Source: an uncultured Clostridia bacterium
GTDB taxonomy: Bacteria; Bacillota; Clostridia; Oscillospirales; Acutalibacteraceae
Direction: 5' to 3'
DNA: 64,000 bases
Assembly (NCBI GenBank): GCA_947631945.1
Contig: CANRNI010000004.1
Span: 42,926-106,925, forward strand
In this document: piece after piece, positions 35,103 through 45,737 of the stretch
How positions within the stretch are numbered: the first letter of the stretch is position 1
Layout: every line of letters begins with the position of its first letter
Made by a program: the position numbers and the translations under genes
Notes under the pieces: model-generated
Told to the model about the DNA's origin: nothing
Seen by the model: only the letters and a program-made list of their open reading frames with translations
Database searches by the model: none

Positions 35103-35897
35103 TTGATAGTTGAAGGCTTGGAGTGGACATTTGATACGGTGGCTTCCGCATATGAGAAGTTTCGACCCGGGTATACCGATGAACTTTATAAAGTGATATT
35201 TGATTATATTCCTCTTAATGAGTCTTGCTATGCGGCAGAGATAGGTATTGGCGGCGGTCAGGCAACATTGCCGATTTTGAAAACGGGATGTAATTTGACT
35301 GCGGTTGAATACGGTAAGCAATTCTCTGAATTGTGCGAAGAAAAGTTTCGGGAATATCGTAATTTTAATATTATAACAAATAAATTCGAGAATGTGGAAT
35401 TTCCAAACGATACATTTGATTTGATTTATTCCGCGTCGGCATTTCATTGGGTGCCGGAGGATATCGGATATACAAAAGTGTTCTCTATGCTAAAAAGCGG
35501 GGGCGCGTTTGCGCGATTTGCAAACCACCCTTATCCTGCTAAAGATAATTTGCCTCTTGCGAAAGAAATAGATAGGATTTATGCCGCGCACTATTATAAA
35601 TATTATAACAGAAAGCAAAAGGTGCTGACAGAATATAGCCGGGAAGATGCTTTGCAAAGAGCAAAAATTGCAGAGAAATATGGCTTTGCGGATATAAAAT
35701 ATGCTATATTTCATAGAACACGGACTTTTTCGGCAAATGAATACAGCGCATTACTCGGAACTTATTCCGACCACATTGCGATTGAGGAAAATATAAGAAA
35801 GGAATTTTTCTTGAAGATTGAGGAGGCAATAAATAATTATGGCGGTTCGATTACAGTATATGACACTATAGACTTGCAGCTTGCAAGAAAACCGTAA
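35103..35897 (+). CDS. Class I SAM-dependent methyltransferase
   Basis: AAEIGIGGGQATLPIL motif I; FDLIYSASAFHWV. Confidence 0.88.
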   Translation: MIVEGLEWTFDTVASAYEKFRPGYTDELYKVIFDYIPLNESCYAAEIGIGGGQATLPILKTGCNLTAVEYGKQFSELCEEKFREYRNFNIITNKFENVEFPNDTFDLIYSASAFHWVPEDIGYTKVFSMLKSGGAFARFANHPYPAKDNLPLAKEIDRIYAAHYYKYYNRKQKVLTEYSREDALQRAKIAEKYGFADIKYAIFHRTRTFSANEYSALLGTYSDHIAIEENIRKEFFLKIEEAINNYGGSITVYDTIDLQLARKP

Positions 35898-36049: not shown

Positions 36050-37780
36050 TCAGTCGTCAATATCTTTATCGTATTTAACTATAGCACCTGTCACGGCGTT
36101 TATATCGTATTCGTACTCATAATATCCGAAATTAAAGCTTATTTCGTATACGACAAGTCCGTGTTCTCTCTCTAACTCACATTCATATCCGTAAATTTTG
36201 GACGCGTCAACTCCGGCATGATTGAGAGCCGCTTCTTTCGCCTTCGCTTCGCCTATATAGCCGCCGCTTGAAGAGGGAGCCGATGTTGTCGGCGCCGGAG
36301 CGGGAGCCGGTGTGCGGGTCGTCGGTTCCGTTTTGGAGGTAGTCTGAGCATTTGTGCTTCTGCGGTAATCGTCGTTTGTTTCTTTATCCGATTTTATGAT
36401 TTTGCCTGTCGCGGCGTTTATATCGTATTCGTATTCATACTGATTTGTCTCAAAGCTGACTTCATATACTACAGTGCCGTTTTCTCTGTCAAGCTTACAT
36501 TCATAGTCGCGAATTTGAGAAGCGGTAACGCCTGCATGATTAAGCGCGATTTCCTTGGCTTTCGCTTCGCCTATATAACTGTTACCGTTTGCGGGCTTTG
36601 CCGTTGTCTGCTCCGTACTGCCGGTATTTCCGCCGCCGTTATTGCTGTTTCCCGAGGAGGTATTGCCGTTATTGTTATTATTATTGCCAGCCTCGCCGCC
36701 GGAGTTGCTTCCGCCGTTATTCGTGCCGCTGTTGGTGTTTGTATTGCCTGTGGCGTTATTTCCGGTTCCGGCAGAGCCGATTTCAGGCTCTTTTTCCGAC
36801 TTGATGATTTCGCCCGTTTCGGCGTTTATATTAAAATCGTATTCGTAGCTGTTGAAATCAAACTCAACGTCATAAATCATAATGCCGTTTTCCCAGTCAA
36901 GCTCGATTTTTAATGCGGAAACGTCCTTTTCTGCGGCACCCGCCTTTGAAAGCGCGATTTCCTTGGCTTTCGCTTCACCGATGTACGCCTTATCGCTTGC
37001 CGTGCCGGACGCCGCGACGTTATCGAGCGTAAGATTTCCCGATTCCGATATGAGATTGAGTTCGTTTACGGTAAGTCCGACAAGATCCTCAAAGCTGTAA
37101 AATGTGTTCTGTTTGGTTATCTGGTTTATAAGCTGAGCTTTACCCTGCGATATTCCGTATTTCTCCGCGAGAGCGTCCGTATTGTCATCATGCAGAATGG
37201 TTTGACCGAGAATAGCTCCGCTGAACGAATTATTGCCTATGACCTCGTTTATTTCATCTGTAAGCATTTTTAAAAGAGAATCGCATTTTGATTTATCGGA
37301 ATTATCAACGGAAATAAGAATGGAATTCGCATCGTCCGTGAGATATCCGTTTCTGAGCATAGAGCCTATAATTGCGTTGACCGCCACATTAAGCGGACTG
37401 CCGTCCAAATCCATATCGCCTATAATTTTTGTGCCGTCCTCATTGAGCGGTTTAACGTCGAGAACCTTGTCCTTGCTGTTAAGCTGCATTTCCACACTCG
37501 GGTTCACGTCGAGCGAAACCTTGGTATTGATTTTGAAGTTTGATAAATACACCCCAAATACGCTGCCGAACAGCAATATAACCACTGCCGCTGCCGACAC
37601 GGCGCTTAAAATTATTTTGTTTCTTTTTTTCTTTTCATTCATGTAAATCACTGTTCCTTTCTGTTCTCCGCAGTCGGAGGAAATAGAGTTAAAAATATCC
37701 GGCGCAGCATTGGAAAAGGCCTGTTCTACCTTTTTTTCAATTTTTTTATTGTTGTCAGACATACAGTCTCTCTCCTTCAA
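36050..37780 (-). CDS. RsgI-like anti-sigma factor with three PepSY repeats
   Basis: Short cytoplasmic N-terminus, TM IILSAVSAAAVVILLFGSVFGVYL, RsgI-like SLDVNPSVEMQLNSKDKVLDV, then three YIGEAKAKEIAL...YEYDINAxTGxIIK PepSY units with low-complexity linkers. Confidence 0.85.
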   Translation of the reverse strand: MKERDCMSDNNKKIEKKVEQAFSNAAPDIFNSISSDCGEQKGTVIYMNEKKKRNKIILSAVSAAAVVILLFGSVFGVYLSNFKINTKVSLDVNPSVEMQLNSKDKVLDVKPLNEDGTKIIGDMDLDGSPLNVAVNAIIGSMLRNGYLTDDANSILISVDNSDKSKCDSLLKMLTDEINEVIGNNSFSGAILGQTILHDDNTDALAEKYGISQGKAQLINQITKQNTFYSFEDLVGLTVNELNLISESGNLTLDNVAASGTASDKAYIGEAKAKEIALSKAGAAEKDVSALKIELDWENGIMIYDVEFDFNSYEYDFNINAETGEIIKSEKEPEIGSAGTGNNATGNTNTNSGTNNGGSNSGGEAGNNNNNNGNTSSGNSNNGGGNTGSTEQTTAKPANGNSYIGEAKAKEIALNHAGVTASQIRDYECKLDRENGTVVYEVSFETNQYEYEYDINAATGKIIKSDKETNDDYRRSTNAQTTSKTEPTTRTPAPAPAPTTSAPSSSGGYIGEAKAKEAALNHAGVDASKIYGYECELEREHGLVVYEISFNFGYYEYEYDINAVTGAIVKYDKDIDD

Positions 37781-38339
37781 TCATTTTTCTCATTTTGCCG
37801 ATCGCCCTGTTGTATTTTGAAAGGACCGTTGACAGCGGTTTATTAAGAATATCCGCTATTTCCCTGTGCTTGAAGCCGGAAACGGCGTGAAGCACAACTA
37901 TCTGCCGTTCGTCGTCGGAAAGCTTTGACATACAGTCGTTTAGGATTGCTTTGTCCTCCGCCGACATATTATCGTTCGATTGGAAATATGCTTCGTTATA
38001 TTCGGGCGGTTCCTCGCCCGCTTTTGAATATTCACGGATTTTCATAAGACAAAGATTTTTCGTTATTGTCATTATCCACGCCATTGGCTTGCCCATTCTT
38101 TTGTAGCTCCCGGCCGCCTGCCATATCTGCAAAAAGCAGTCGTGCAGAATATCTTGCGCGTCGTCGGGATTTTTGAGCATTGAAAGAGCAAAAGAATATA
38201 CGGGAACACGGGTTTTGTTATACAGCTCTGCGAGAGCGTTTTTGTCGCCGTCTGCAATATTTAAAATGTATTGCTCTGTATAATCGGTATCCGTGTCCGG
38301 ACTGCCGCCGTTTGCCGGTACCATGCGAAACGTAAGCAT
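37755..38339 (-). CDS. ECF-type RNA polymerase sigma factor
   Basis: Region 2 (LYNKTRVPVYSFALSMLKNPDDAQDILHDCFLQIWQ) and region 4 (LSDDERQIVVLHAVSGFKHREIADIL); stop overlaps anti-sigma start. Confidence 0.9.
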   Translation of the reverse strand: MLTFRMVPANGGSPDTDTDYTEQYILNIADGDKNALAELYNKTRVPVYSFALSMLKNPDDAQDILHDCFLQIWQAAGSYKRMGKPMAWIMTITKNLCLMKIREYSKAGEEPPEYNEAYFQSNDNMSAEDKAILNDCMSKLSDDERQIVVLHAVSGFKHREIADILNKPLSTVLSKYNRAIGKMRKMIEGERLYV

Positions 38340-38780
38340 TTATATTCCTCCTTTCATAATGTTAATGCATAAGCTTTGGATTTTATTGCACAATTTTTGA
38401 AAAAAATTTTAGTGGCGATTTCGTCTTTTTCATTATAATAGCATATATTTTTGGGATTTTCAATCCGTAAAGCCAAAGTCTTGCCCGACAATTGTAAATC
38501 CATTTGAAAACGCCGCTTTTCGGCATATTAAAATAATTTTTAACAGTTATTTAAGGTAAAAAGCAGTAAAATGTGTATGTTCTGCATTATTGTTAATTTA
38601 TTAACAATCTAAAAGCGATTTTATGCAATATTTATGCAATAATTGCTAAATCAAACAGCAATTTTATTGAGTTTTTTGATTAAAAAAGTGAAAATTAAGG
38701 TGTTTTGCGTTTAAAATTTAACATAAATTTGACAAAAGATTAAAATAAATTAAATCGGGAAAAAAATCGCGGTTTTTGTA

Positions 38781-38809
38781 TTGACATTGAAAAAATTAAA
38801 TGTTAAGAT
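38781..38809 (+). promoter_or_regulatory. Sigma-A type promoter for the M60-like gene
   Basis: TTGACA - 17 nt - TAAGAT, about 215 nt upstream of the start codon. Confidence 0.7.
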
Positions 38810-39026
38810 ATGGGTGCTAAATTAAATCTGTTGGTATCTTTGGTATCGGTAGATTCTGTTTTGATATCGTGAGTATGAGGAGGTGGTTAATCGGTGCGGA
38901 GAGACTCTTCACCCGACGCGAACGATTATCATACTGCAAAGGCGTATTTTACGCCGAGAGAAAGGACAGAGTTTTAAACTCAAAAAGGACAAAATTTTTT
39001 CAAAAGGACAAAAGGAGGTTTTTAAC

Positions 39027-42000
39027 GTGAAAAAGAGACTGTTAAGCTGGTTGCTTGTTGTATGTATGCTTCTTACAAGTATGCCGATAGCTTTCGCCGC
39101 CGATTTTGCTACGGGCGACGGTGAGTTCGGAATTACAATCAAGGAAGTTATACCGACTTCGACAAACACATTAAAAGTAACTCTCACGCAAGAATCCGGT
39201 GCGACAAAGGAAGTTCCCGTTGTCGGAGCTACCAATGTTGAAGACACCACTGCCGATACTTATTCCGGCAAAGTTTCGGGTATCGCGAACGGCGAATACA
39301 CTCTCACCGTAGAGGGCGACAATTACGCCACATATACCCAGAAAATCAACATTAAAGATAACTGCGTAAACATCATGCTTTACAATGAGATTTCCGTTAA
39401 CTACGGTCGTTATGACATCGTTGACGGCCAATTTCAGCCCAAGACATACACCGACGCGGCGACGAACAGCGAAAAGACATACGTTCTTTTCGGCGTTATC
39501 GCTATAGGTGACGTTAACGGCGACGGTCAAATCACAAAGGACGACGCCGATGCGGTTACGGCTCACATAGGTGAAACCGACGAAGAGTCGATTGCGAAGT
39601 ACGACCTTAACGGCGACGACAAAATTGATACTGTTGACCTTACCTACGTAACGCGTAACATTCTCAGCAATAAAATATCCAGCAATATTATGGCTACTCC
39701 CGTTACATCTGTTTCTTCGCTCGTTTTGGCTAAGAAAGCCAACGTAGCCGCCGCCGAAGGCACAAAGGCTACCGCAAAGGCTGCGAAGAAAGATGCGAGC
39801 GGTCAGGTTCAGAAGGACGAAAACGGCAACGTCGTTTACGAAGAGAAAGAAGCCGACCTTAAAGAGGTTCTTCTTGCCGCAGACGCCGAAACAGTCGTTT
39901 CTCTCGCTCCTCAGGACGCGGACGCTGAAATTTCTGCCAACTCTCCCGCAGAGCTTGACCTTGACCTCGGTACGGCGGAAGCCGCTCCCGGCGAAGCTCC
40001 CGAAGACGCTCCCGTTGTAGAAGCTATCACCATCGTTCCTCCCGTTGATTCCGCAAACAAGATTACGGAAGGTACTCTTACGGTAGAAGGCTTTGACACA
40101 GTAGAGAAAAAGGACGTTACCGTTGAAGCTCCTCTCAGCGATTCAGCCGCTCCCGCGAAGATTTCCACCATGTCTGCGAAACGCTCCGCGAAGATTATGG
40201 CTATCGGCGCAGAGCCCGCTCCCATTGCCGAACCCGCAAAGGTTGACGGTAAGACTGCTGTTGAAAGCAACGGTACAATCGTTGTTGACCTCGGCGGTAA
40301 GGTTGCCATCAAGAAAGTTTCCATCAGAGTTACGGGAACAAGCAGCGGTAAGCTCGCAGATATCGCTAAGGTTGAATTCCTTGACGATTTCGCATCTCGT
40401 ATTCCCGAACCGAAGCTCAGCATACCCGAGATTATTGAAGGTTCTGTTTCCAACTCCGAAGGCGAATACAAGAGCCTTACTTTCTCCTGGACGAAGCAGG
40501 AAAACATCACGGGATACGAAGTATCCATCAACGGCCCCGGAGTTCCCAACATCACGAGAACTACCGACGACACAACATTCAAATTCCAGTCCGATAAGAA
40601 CGTAGCCGTTCTTCAGACTTACGGAAAATATGAGATTAAGGTTCGTTCGTTCAGCGGCGACTGGAAGAGCGAATGGTCACAGCCCTATACTCATGAAGTA
40701 ACTTGTATCTCCCGTCCCAACGCTCCCGAATATCTTAAAGCAACGCCCGGCATAGGATTTCTTAACATCTCTTGGCGCGCTCTTTACGATACAAATCAGT
40801 GGACGCTTTACTACAGAAACGTTACAAAGGGCGAACAGGAATATACCGCTACTGATAGACTCAACACAGCGTCGTACAAACTTGATAACCTTCAGGGCGG
40901 CGACGAGTACGAGTTCTATGTAGTCGGTCACAACAGAATCGGCGACAGCCCGAACTCCGCGCACGCAACAGGTATCGTTCTTACAGCTACGGGCGCACAG
41001 CTCCCGGAGTATGAGCTTATAAATACCAATAACTACGACGGCAAGGCTCTTACTCATATCAAAGAGATTGCTTTCTACAAAACAGCAACAATGACTCTTT
41101 ACAAGAAAGACGCTAAAAATTCGGTTGTTGCTCTTACCGATAATCAAATCACAAAAGAAGACCTTACCGCTATTCTTACCGACCATGATCCCGAAACATA
41201 CTTCACCATTAACGACTGGGACAGCGGTAACTCTTATGACGGTACGGGCGCAGACCATAACGACACGTTGAAAGCTCCCATCATCAGACTTGATGAGAAA
41301 ATGACTGTCGATACGTTCTGCATCGCTCCTAAGGACGGCGCGACCGCTCATATGAACAGCGCAAAGATTGGCTATATTGATGAAAACGGTCAGAAACAGC
41401 TTGTAGGCGCAAGCCTTGTTCGTAAATACGATGACCAAGGTCGTACCTACTATGAAATAGTCGCGGCAGTACCCATCACAAGTGACGAATTCCAGATTCG
41501 TGTAAGCGGTACGCATGGTATGTCCGCTTCCGAGATTGCTGTTTACAATTACGTTTCCGCATTCAATGACGCTAAAGCTCTGTTTACGGATTCAAGACAG
41601 ATAGAACTTGTTGATGACGCTGATACTGCGCAGCAGAAAGTCAATGCGATAAGAGAAACTATCAACAAGCCCGATGCAAAAGGCAATTACTACCCCAAGA
41701 AAGACGCTACCGAGATTATCCTTCAGCAGGCTGAAAGACTTATTAAGTATAGAGATCTTGATGAACCCATCAGAATCCATACAGAGATAACTCCCAAGGC
41801 TGACGGTAATATGGATTCCGCGCTTCCCGTTTCCAACAATCAGCCTCTCGGCTACGTTGCTGCGGCAGGCGAAACGGTTATCATATTTGTTGCCGATGAC
41901 AAAGGTTCTGCCGACGGCACAGCGACAAACCTTTACCTCGTATCAACTCAGTATCATTCCGAAGTTAATAAGTGGAATGAGATGACAAAACTTCACATAG

Positions 42001-45000
42001 GCGCGAACGAAATTGTTATTCCGCCTATCACGACAGCTACAAGAGAACGCGGCGGCGCGCTCTATGCGGCATATGAAGCGGGCAGAGCCACCACCAACGA
42101 CTATACTGTACGCGTACAGGGCGGTACAAAGATCCCGATGCTCGACGTCAGCTCCTACAGACTTAACTCTCCCGAAATGAAGGATAAAGCCGATAAGGAC
42201 GCTCTCCGTCAGGAACTCATCGCTCAGTATATCAAAGACCTTGAAGCGTATGTAGGCACAGACGGCTCGGCAATCGAAGCTCTTCACGACAAGCTGCACC
42301 ATTCCGATGAGCAAGCAGAGAACGCAAGCGTATACTATGATTATGACGCTGAAAACTGCTTCCTTAACTCCACCGAAGTTGTTATGGATTACGCCGAATT
42401 CAGCGTACCCGCAACAAAGGCTCTCGAGGGCATCAAGGCAGGCGCAACGGCTAAGCGGATTAGCAATGAAGCTCAGCTTAGCGACGCTCTTGAGGCAATG
42501 GACCAGGAGATTGAATTCTTCTATCAGTTCAAAGGTCTCTATAAGACAGACGATATGAACGACACCGACAGATATCCGTCGGGCAAACAGAACATCCGTT
42601 ATATGACGATGTTCACAGGCGCGTTTATGTACGCGGCAGGCGAGCATATCGGTATCGGCTATGACAGCGTTCCCGGTATCTTCGCTACAACTCCGATTAA
42701 GACAGACGCTCAGGGCAAATACGAATCCGGCGGTTATTCCGGCTGGGGTATCGGCCACGAAATCGGTCACGTTATCAACAACAAGAATTATCAGGTAACA
42801 GAAGTTACGAACAATATGTTCGCTCAGCTCGCTCAGATATTTGACGGCGTTGACACTCGCGCGGATAAAGATACTCCGCATACTGCAAACGACAACTTCC
42901 GTTCAAAATATGACGGCGTTGGCGGCACATGGTCAAAGGTTACAGGCACAAACGCAGGTAACGTTCCCGGCTTGGGCGATTCACTCGCATTCTTCTGGCA
43001 GCTCCACCTTGCGTATGATAATGATTATCATTACGTAACTTACGAGAACCACGACGAGCAGCTCGCTCACATCTTCTATGCGCGCGTTGACTCCTACTAC
43101 AGAAGCGTAGCAAGATTCAACAACAGCGAAAAGGGCAAGACTCTCACTATACCGCTCAACCTCAGCGGCGACAAGGTCAACAACTTTATGAGAGTTTGCG
43201 TTGCGGCGGCTGACAAGGATTGTCTTGATTTCTTCCGCGCTTGGGGCATGACTCCCGACGAGGAAACAGTAGCGTTCGCGGCTCAGTTTGAACCCGAAAC
43301 ACGTAAGATTCAGTACGTTGACGACAACAGCTTCTATTATGCAATTGAGAATAAGGAATCTGTTGCGGCAAATACAACAGTAAACGCTCAGATCAACGGC
43401 GTTGACGGTACTAAGAAACTCAACAGCAACAAGGTTGAAATCACTATCACCAACACAGCCGAAGACCAGAGCAAGATGCTCGGTTATGAAATCCATCGTG
43501 ACGACAAGATTGTAGCATTCGTTCCCGTTGACGCAAGCGGCACAACCGTTTACACCGACGTCGTAGCAACCGAAAACAATAAGGCGTTCGTTTACAAAGT
43601 AGTCGGCGTTGACCATATGCTCAATGCGACGAAAGAATATGTTCTTCCCGAAGTTAAGGTTATGCATGATGGCGCAATCGACAAGACCGATTGGACGATT
43701 CTTGACACCACTCTTTACAGCGAGGACGACGTTACTCTTAAAGCCGGCGACGAAACCAAGGATCAGTACTCCTGCGAAGACGTTCGTATACCCAATTTGG
43801 GCAAGATATACGACAACGACAACGAATCCGTATACAAGGGAACATCAAACTACGAGCTGGACGGCGTTCAGAAGACAGGCGTTCCGATGTTCACTATCGA
43901 CTTCGGTAAGGTCGAACAGGTAACTGCTATCAAGTTCGTTCCGTCGGAAGAAGAAGACGCACTCAAGGCGTTCCAGGTTTATGTAAGCACAGACGGCGAG
44001 AACTGGGGCGAAATGGTTAAGGAAATCAACTCCTTGCAGGATGAAGGCGTTAAAGACAACCAAGACGGCTCTTACACGGCATACTTCAATAAAGCCGGCG
44101 ATAAGTATATGTACACTTACGATGCTCGTTACCTTATGGTAATCGCGAAAGACATCACGGCGACATCTATCTCCCTTGCCGAACTCGATGTACTCGGTCC
44201 CACAAACGACAATATCGAGCTTGAGCATACGGGCTATCTCGCCGAAGAGTACACCTACAACACTGCTAAGCAGTATAAGATTCCGCAGAACGCAGTTATG
44301 TTCTACGGCACATTCAAGGGCGATCCCGCATACAGCGTTGTACTTCTCAGAGATGCTAACGACAACATCATCAGCGGCGATCAGATTGTTCTCGCTCCCG
44401 TTACAGAAGACGGCGACCTTGGCGAAACAAGCGACGGCGCATGGATTTACTGGCTTGTAGACCCGTTCACCGAGGAAGTTGTTACAAAGGATAACCTCCA
44501 GCAGTTCATTCAGGATTACAAAGATAAGAGTGAAGGCAACATTGAGCTTGACTTCTCGTCCGTACAGGCGGAACTCTATCGCGTACAGAATGCAACCACA
44601 ATGGAAGGTCAGAGACTTACCAGTAACACACTCCACGTTGCTCTTAACGAGAATACTCCCATTCAGCTTGCAAGCGACCCGACAGTCAGCAAGGCACAGG
44701 GCGAATACAACCAGAATCCGCCTACACTTGCAGGCACAGAACCGGTAGCGCTGGCTTCCAACAAGCTGTTCAAACTCGGCACACCTATCGCGAAGATAGC
44801 CAACGGCGTTCCGGTAGCTATGGATCTTGAAGAAGCTGAAGACGAAAACGTTGTTGTTACGGAAACACCGAGTGCGGTAAGCATCGTTGTTAACGACGAA
44901 GACGCGAACGCTGAAGAAGGCTTCGCACGCTTCAGACTTAACACAACAACTAACCCCTATGCGGTACACTTCACCGTTAAACTCGACCTCCAGGGTACAG

Positions 45001-45737
45001 GTAACGTAGCCAATGCAAAGATTAAGAACGTAACTTTCCCGACGGCTGATAATGACGCATCCGTATACCTTGGTTACAAGATTGCGGCTGACGGTCAGAG
45101 CGTTGACGTTTACGCGGCAACAATGTCTACCGGTATCCAGAACCCGATTGTAGGCGACGTAGCAATTGACGATGCGCCTCTCGCGGCCGATACCCACCAG
45201 GGACATCAGCACCTGTACTACTCAATCGACGGTTTCGAGAAACTCAACAGCGCATACACTCTTGATACAATGTCCGGCGAGGAATTCAGCGCGAAAGACT
45301 TCGCAGAATATGAGTGTAAGAATCATGAGTATGATGAGGTTGCAGGTTCTGCGACTTGTACAGAGCCCGGTTCGGTAGCTTACACCTGTAAGTTCTGCGG
45401 CAACGGCTATACAGAGTACAATGCCGATCCTCTCGGTCATGACTTTGAAGATTGGAAAGTAACCACAGAGCCTACCTGCACCGAAGACGGCGTTGAAGAG
45501 AGACATTGCACACGTTGTGACGAAGTAGAGAAACAGGCTGTTCCCGCAATAGGCCATACCGATAAGAATACTGACGGTAAGTGCGATAACTGCGGCGAAG
45601 ATTACGAGTTTAAGTGCAGTCTTTGCGATAAATATGAACAGATGAAAGATATTCCTGTAATCGGACCGATTTTCGGTATCATTCACAGCATAGTTCATCT
45701 CTTTGCTCGCATTGGATACTATCTTGGATTAAAATAA
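39027..45737 (+). CDS. Giant secreted M60-like (enhancin/mucinase-type) metallopeptidase with dockerin-like and FN3/discoidin-like modules
   Basis: GTG start after AAAGGAGG; signal peptide MKKRLLSWLLVVCMLLTSMPIAFA; GDVNGDGQITKDDADAV...YDLNGDDKIDTVDLTYV (dockerin-like); YSGWGIGHEIGHVINNKNYQ (HExxH); C-terminal CxxC repeats. Confidence 0.85.
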   Translation: MKKRLLSWLLVVCMLLTSMPIAFAADFATGDGEFGITIKEVIPTSTNTLKVTLTQESGATKEVPVVGATNVEDTTADTYSGKVSGIANGEYTLTVEGDNYATYTQKINIKDNCVNIMLYNEISVNYGRYDIVDGQFQPKTYTDAATNSEKTYVLFGVIAIGDVNGDGQITKDDADAVTAHIGETDEESIAKYDLNGDDKIDTVDLTYVTRNILSNKISSNIMATPVTSVSSLVLAKKANVAAAEGTKATAKAAKKDASGQVQKDENGNVVYEEKEADLKEVLLAADAETVVSLAPQDADAEISANSPAELDLDLGTAEAAPGEAPEDAPVVEAITIVPPVDSANKITEGTLTVEGFDTVEKKDVTVEAPLSDSAAPAKISTMSAKRSAKIMAIGAEPAPIAEPAKVDGKTAVESNGTIVVDLGGKVAIKKVSIRVTGTSSGKLADIAKVEFLDDFASRIPEPKLSIPEIIEGSVSNSEGEYKSLTFSWTKQENITGYEVSINGPGVPNITRTTDDTTFKFQSDKNVAVLQTYGKYEIKVRSFSGDWKSEWSQPYTHEVTCISRPNAPEYLKATPGIGFLNISWRALYDTNQWTLYYRNVTKGEQEYTATDRLNTASYKLDNLQGGDEYEFYVVGHNRIGDSPNSAHATGIVLTATGAQLPEYELINTNNYDGKALTHIKEIAFYKTATMTLYKKDAKNSVVALTDNQITKEDLTAILTDHDPETYFTINDWDSGNSYDGTGADHNDTLKAPIIRLDEKMTVDTFCIAPKDGATAHMNSAKIGYIDENGQKQLVGASLVRKYDDQGRTYYEIVAAVPITSDEFQIRVSGTHGMSASEIAVYNYVSAFNDAKALFTDSRQIELVDDADTAQQKVNAIRETINKPDAKGNYYPKKDATEIILQQAERLIKYRDLDEPIRIHTEITPKADGNMDSALPVSNNQPLGYVAAAGETVIIFVADDKGSADGTATNLYLVSTQYHSEVNKWNEMTKLHIGANEIVIPPITTATRERGGALYAAYEAGRATTNDYTVRVQGGTKIPMLDVSSYRLNSPEMKDKADKDALRQELIAQYIKDLEAYVGTDGSAIEALHDKLHHSDEQAENASVYYDYDAENCFLNSTEVVMDYAEFSVPATKALEGIKAGATAKRISNEAQLSDALEAMDQEIEFFYQFKGLYKTDDMNDTDRYPSGKQNIRYMTMFTGAFMYAAGEHIGIGYDSVPGIFATTPIKTDAQGKYESGGYSGWGIGHEIGHVINNKNYQVTEVTNNMFAQLAQIFDGVDTRADKDTPHTANDNFRSKYDGVGGTWSKVTGTNAGNVPGLGDSLAFFWQLHLAYDNDYHYVTYENHDEQLAHIFYARVDSYYRSVARFNNSEKGKTLTIPLNLSGDKVNNFMRVCVAAADKDCLDFFRAWGMTPDEETVAFAAQFEPETRKIQYVDDNSFYYAIENKESVAANTTVNAQINGVDGTKKLNSNKVEITITNTAEDQSKMLGYEIHRDDKIVAFVPVDASGTTVYTDVVATENNKAFVYKVVGVDHMLNATKEYVLPEVKVMHDGAIDKTDWTILDTTLYSEDDVTLKAGDETKDQYSCEDVRIPNLGKIYDNDNESVYKGTSNYELDGVQKTGVPMFTIDFGKVEQVTAIKFVPSEEEDALKAFQVYVSTDGENWGEMVKEINSLQDEGVKDNQDGSYTAYFNKAGDKYMYTYDARYLMVIAKDITATSISLAELDVLGPTNDNIELEHTGYLAEEYTYNTAKQYKIPQNAVMFYGTFKGDPAYSVVLLRDANDNIISGDQIVLAPVTEDGDLGETSDGAWIYWLVDPFTEEVVTKDNLQQFIQDYKDKSEGNIELDFSSVQAELYRVQNATTMEGQRLTSNTLHVALNENTPIQLASDPTVSKAQGEYNQNPPTLAGTEPVALASNKLFKLGTPIAKIANGVPVAMDLEEAEDENVVVTETPSAVSIVVNDEDANAEEGFARFRLNTTTNPYAVHFTVKLDLQGTGNVANAKIKNVTFPTADNDASVYLGYKIAADGQSVDVYAATMSTGIQNPIVGDVAIDDAPLAADTHQGHQHLYYSIDGFEKLNSAYTLDTMSGEEFSAKDFAEYECKNHEYDEVAGSATCTEPGSVAYTCKFCGNGYTEYNADPLGHDFEDWKVTTEPTCTEDGVEERHCTRCDEVEKQAVPAIGHTDKNTDGKCDNCGEDYEFKCSLCDKYEQMKDIPVIGPIFGIIHSIVHLFARIGYYLGLK
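42756..42770 (+). other. HEIGH zinc metallopeptidase motif
   Basis: cacgaaatcggtcac. Confidence 0.9.

Follow-up and report, generated by a model that had tools for sequence, protein, structure and literature searches.

The window analysed here is a stretch of 64,000 nucleotides from an uncultured Clostridia bacterium, in which the genes of an ECF-type sigma factor and of a transmembrane RsgI-like anti-sigma factor lie on the minus strand, divergent from a plus-strand gene encoding a giant secreted metallopeptidase (Table 1). This arrangement and the nature of the three products had been put forward in an earlier note on this DNA, and the domain searches bear them out, every Pfam match across the three proteins being far beyond chance. 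The sigma factor contains Sigma70_r2 (PF04542, 1.3e-13) and Sigma70_r4_2 (PF08281, 1e-11), scores above the cut-off of the NCBIfam model TIGR02937 and has sigma2 and sigma4 regions only, as expected of the ECF type. The preferred start codon of the anti-sigma gene, ATG 37762, has AAGGAG upstream and overlaps the sigma stop by 8 nt, in line with the translational overlap that had been claimed for the pair.

Table 1. Features of the sigma/anti-sigma/peptidase region, with positions in the window
Feature	Position	Strand	Basis
RsgI-like transmembrane anti-sigma, 570 aa from ATG 37762	36050..37762 (open frame to 37780)	-	RsgI_M, three PepSY, fold match
PepSY repeat 3 (approximate)	36050..36262	-	Pfam, sequence
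PepSY repeat 2 (approximate)	36347..36583	-	Pfam, sequence
Asn/Gly/Ser-rich disordered linker between PepSY 1 and 2 (approximate)	36593..36784	-	pLDDT < 50 at residues 330-393, sequence
PepSY repeat 1 (approximate)	36785..37006	-	Pfam, sequence
Asn87-Pro88 codons, predicted self-cleavage site	37499..37504	-	Alignment with solved RsgI chains, conservation
ECF-type sigma factor, 194 aa, regions 2 and 4	37755..38339	-	Pfam and NCBIfam
Predicted autoregulatory ECF promoter, TGCAATAAAA-N12-GCATTA, 23 nt before sigma start	38363..38390	-	Same-place conservation in relatives
Possible basal sigma-A promoter of sigma operon, TTGAAA-N17-TATTAT	38435..38463	-	Consensus match alone, 10/12, TG before -10
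Weak resemblance to the sigma's promoter, AGCAGTAAAA-N12-GCATTA, directed towards the peptidase gene, with 437 nt to the start codon	38562..38589	+	Second-best core score in window
Sigma-A-like promoter of peptidase, TTGACA-N17-TAAGAT	38781..38809	+	Consensus match
Secreted M60-type metallopeptidase, 2236 aa: signal peptide, type I dockerin, fn3 x2, M60 (HEIGH), F5/8C, Cys-rich tail	39027..45737	+	Pfam, sequence

The anti-sigma factor contains an RsgI_M domain (PF23750, 2.7e-29) and three PepSY stretches (1.7e-20), the latter being the tandem sensor that had been recognised from the sequence. A profile of 20 relatives matches the solved periplasmic domains of RsgI1, RsgI2, RsgI6 and RsgI9 of C. 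thermocellum and of RsgI of B. subtilis, and the first residue of the PDB chains 8u9o, 8her, 8heq, 8hdj and 8hep aligns with Pro88 of the anti-sigma (E 1.2e-16 to 9.5e-13). For the C. thermocellum chains, a start at the aligned proline is what would be expected of a self-cleavage product. AlphaFold2, run with 20 sequences, predicts with confidence the periplasmic domain and three PepSY folds, with disordered linkers between them, two of which are long and of low confidence (residues 330-393 and 469-500). The model aligns with 8t9n and 8hdj at a TM-score of 0.72-0.77 (by target length), and Foldseek retrieves RsgI domains, YpeB and the PepSY lipoprotein CD1622. This agreement in both sequence and fold upholds the likening of its signalling to that of the cellulosome RsgIs. 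The short N-terminal domain, predicted to bind the sigma factor, has no match to any Pfam family, and RsgI_N is absent from this domain in all 20 relatives checked. The transmembrane helix carries Ala-Ala motifs resembling those read by ClpXP; such motifs are commonplace.

Sequence comparison identifies the sigma/anti-sigma pair as a real and widespread module. A GTDB search with a 6-member alignment as query returned 388 relatives of the anti-sigma, the module being common in Clostridia and Erysipelotrichia, and a sigma gene lies beside the anti-sigma gene in 78 of the best 80. About 21 of 150 genomes of the family, the query genome counted, carry the pair, which is also present in the cultured Roseburia inulinivorans and Traorella massiliensis; many other carriers come from gut samples. 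Asn-Pro is retained in 94 of 95 relatives (93 by pattern, one more with Cys after the Pro) and PepSY is found in 91 of 95, three copies being the commonest number (exactly three in 55) and seven the maximum. Among the 20 aligned relatives, all have RsgI_M and 16 have PepSY. Three relatives (L085, L086 and L087) keep the RsgI domain with no PepSY and end in Cys-rich, zinc-ribbon-like or Ser/Pro-rich tails, suggesting that the sensor is exchangeable. The exceptional relative L083 (10010-11641) has diverged repeats and Gln-Pro in place of Asn-Pro, and may not self-cleave.

Before the sigma gene, the motif TGCAATAAAA-N12-GCATTA or a close variant is found in 18 genomes (17 relatives and the window), usually 20-30 bp from the start. 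With a matrix built from the 17 relatives, the window left out, the window's own sigma-operon site obtains the top score in 64 kb, and a match of at least 15 bits is present at 65 of 77 GTDB sigma starts, which are mostly not training sequences (a few of the GTDB promoter records coincide with training sequences, L192 and L068 being one contig). Given that this conserved promoter precedes nearly every sigma gene, the pair would be expected to activate its own operon. Such positive autoregulation is a well-supported prediction; with an anti-sigma in the same operon, this is the organisation expected of an ECF system. The promoter is not of the classical AAC (-35) / CGT (-10) form, which later classifications do not treat as a required feature of ECF sigma factors (PMC8103513). 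Searched for across 20 genomes (1.7-5 Mb), a tightened consensus has about one site per genome, in most cases that of the sigma gene, and reversed controls give mostly zero, so that a large consensus regulon is not supported. In the query genome, sites with up to three mismatches are no commoner than with the reversed pattern, and most of the better-scoring ones fall within genes that have no theme in common. A regulon of little beyond its own operon would be odd, and weaker true targets may have been overlooked.

The likely true start of the peptidase gene is GTG 39027, which has an AGGAGG site and opens a reading frame of 2236 aa plus stop that begins with a signal peptide. The Peptidase_M60 domain (PF13402, 8.7e-13) includes HEIGH within HEIGHVINNKNYQVTE, which provides the HEXXH and downstream Glu of M60 enzymes, and is accompanied by two fn3 domains and one F5/8C. 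By definition a type I dockerin has two F-hand repeats, and the “dockerin-like pair” of the earlier note proved to be one such dockerin (PF00404, 1.1e-7). The O-glycopeptidases ZmpA, ZmpC and BcM60C have in common with this protein the M60 catalytic region with HEXXH, but the similarity is distant (matches of about 40-140 residues) and the protein here bears a type I dockerin, its activity being predicted from sequence. The sigma-A-like promoter noted earlier was located upstream of the gene, promoter-like sites as a class being no commoner than in shuffles. Between this promoter and the start codon lies an A/T-rich stem of 14 pairs with a short run rich in T after it (38825-38855), which as a possible attenuator is indistinguishable from chance. 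A structured leader RNA was rejected as well, with no Rfam match, a fold z-score of -0.41 and no repeated copy in the genome.

The same note had suggested a protease-sensing loop, for which neither conservation of the neighbourhood of sigma, anti-sigma and peptidase genes nor co-occurrence of the peptidase with the pair above chance was found in relatives. The flanking regions of 100 relatives (20 family orthologues and 80 GTDB relatives, the GTDB neighbourhoods spanning up to 10 kb per side where contigs allow) contain no M60, which is present in 1 of 11 genus genomes, the other ten having none, and in 5 of 150 family genomes. One genus relative, G152, has the pair, with a shorter anti-sigma, and no M60. 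With the query genome left out, the pair occurs in 1 of 4 M60 genomes compared with 20 of 149 overall, a co-occurrence not above chance (Fisher p = 0.44) in what the note had set beforehand as the first of two refutation tests. In that single genome the two are on different contigs, and no sigma/anti-sigma pair lies near the M60 loci of the four other genomes. Since M60 adjoins the pair in this genome only, the peptidase-sensing loop is not supported as a conserved system, and the peptidase was rejected as a conserved partner of the pair. What stands is the ECF sigma with its RsgI-like PepSY anti-sigma, and a more fitting description of the locus is a module of RsgI type, coupled to an ECF sigma, that has PepSY as its sensor. 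No neighbour family of any kind recurs in more than 9 of 77 loci. Within the genus, gene order around the pair is shared only in a methyltransferase gene that adjoins it both here (35103-35897) and in G152 (L161 11849-12631).

A weak match to the sigma's promoter does face the peptidase gene, with exact spacing and orientation. Its chance probability is 0.0005-0.005 on the core columns and 0.02-0.06 at full width over 70 promoters, the latter being weaker because the flanking columns carry the ribosome site and start of the sigma gene. The site deviates at one position that never varies among the 70 promoters and at another where only T or C occurs. The rest of the genome holds about ten further sites with scores as high, which have the look of chance matches. 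Through this oriented site the M60 gene could be a local target of the sigma factor, leaving room for strain-specific control of the peptidase.

Self-cleaving transducers of the RsgI kind are known as partners of SigI. The SigI-RsgI systems of B. subtilis and of cellulosome regulation in C. thermocellum share with the pair the periplasmic fold, the Asn-Pro site, the trans-wall linker, the exchangeable outer sensor and a single operon for sigma and anti-sigma, and both sequence and model predict that the self-cleaving domain is of the same kind. In contrast, the sigma factor here is a canonical ECF sigma with regions 2 and 4, not a SigI (sigma2 and SigI-C, no sigma4), while the anti-sigma lacks the cytosolic RsgI_N domain, its sensor is tandem PepSY and the promoter is different; given that the partner sigma has region 4, we do not file the system as SigI-RsgI. 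Autoregulated pairs of ECF sigma and membrane anti-sigma factors likewise have a two-domain sigma, an overlapping downstream anti-sigma gene and their own upstream promoter, but that promoter usually has AAC / CGT and release is predicted here to begin by self-cleavage rather than by a site-1 protease. M4 propeptides, YpeB and lipoprotein CD1622 have the PepSY sequence and fold in common with the anti-sigma, whereas here PepSY forms the outer sensor of an anti-sigma factor and no propeptide part. Several hundred members of the Clostridia and Erysipelotrichia have an RsgI-type transducer joined in this way to an ordinary ECF sigma and a PepSY sensor. In an incomplete collection of open-licence papers, we found no paper joining RsgI and PepSY, nor PepSY with anti-sigma factors. 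As the promoter is near-invariant, the regulon and the signal should be directly testable in a cultured strain.

Taking the whole explanation together, we consider it probable that the pair is a self-contained, positively autoregulated RsgI-like envelope sensor coupled to a canonical ECF sigma factor, and that the M60 gene, which adjoins it in this lineage specifically, is transcribed mostly from a sigma-A-type promoter of its own. The domains, the Asn-Pro site, the conserved promoter, the gene pairing and the lack of conserved neighbours come from sequence comparison; the cutting, the release, the proteases, the ligand and the regulon are proposed, step by step, by homology to characterised RsgI systems (PMC12203970, PMC10202637, PMC10575876). 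At rest, the sigma factor would be held at the membrane by the short N-terminal domain of the anti-sigma, whose periplasmic domain would already be cut at Asn87-Pro88, the fold keeping the halves together, and a wall-spanning, partly disordered extension would bear the three PepSY domains. Binding by PepSY, or altered wall tension or spacing, would pull off the outer half, an intramembrane protease and a Clp protease would then destroy the anchor, and the freed sigma would transcribe its own operon from TGCAATAAAA-N12-GCATTA and from few promoters besides. For RsgI of C. thermocellum, autocleavage followed by RseP and ClpXP is established (PMC12203970), and in B. subtilis a pre-cut RsgI senses wall defects (PMC10202637).

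Two versions of this explanation, both tentative and about equally likely, differ in what the PepSY repeats do. According to the first, the protein would sense cell-wall integrity as in B. subtilis SigI-RsgI (PMC10202637), the linkers gauging the wall and PepSY serving as anchors or spacers and not for sensing a ligand, in agreement with the two long low-confidence linkers and with the PepSY-less relatives, in which the RsgI domain is retained together with other tails that are of low complexity or rich in Cys. However, PepSY is retained and occurs in up to seven repeats, whereas the linkers vary between relatives and are almost absent in some, which argues for a role of the PepSY domain itself. 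According to the second, PepSY would bind a nutrient or surface ligand, be it a peptide, protein or glycopeptide, and pulling would trigger release, in the manner of carbohydrate-binding RsgIs. The way in which sensor tails vary on an unchanging transducer resembles the exchange of sensors among C. thermocellum RsgIs, but no conserved enzyme or transporter lies near the pair in 77 loci and there are few other consensus promoters; substrate sensors usually adjoin or control their enzymes.

We regard as improbable, beside this envelope sensor, a reading in which the sigma's only strong target is its own operon, so that the switch would yield its own sensor in the form of additional self-cut PepSY protein, displayed at the surface or released from it, and in which this strain may also have captured the mucinase-like M60 gene via the site at 38562-38589. 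Less probable again is that the PepSY repeats sense the peptidase, its activity or freed mucin peptides and that the sigma drives the peptidase gene: the divergent adjacency, the oriented site and the control of secreted enzymes by RsgI sensors elsewhere (PMC12203970) would fit, but the neighbourhoods, the co-occurrence and the departures of that distant site at near-invariant bases speak against it, and the peptidase whose PepSY propeptide is known in the PDB is of family M4, not M60.

Two small frames of the same genome each give a single cohesin-like match (G000:C3:112051-112365 and G000:C40:15903-16211; L265 and L266) and are possible partners of the dockerin. The C terminus of the peptidase (45300-45737) carries repeats rich in Cys (GHxFEDW..TCTEDG..C..CDE) as well as a hydrophobic end, for which a strict pattern had no second instance among the loci compared. 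Similar Cys-rich repeats are found in large frames of many family genomes and also at G000:C6:23856 (49% identity), and perhaps represent a common surface-protein tail.
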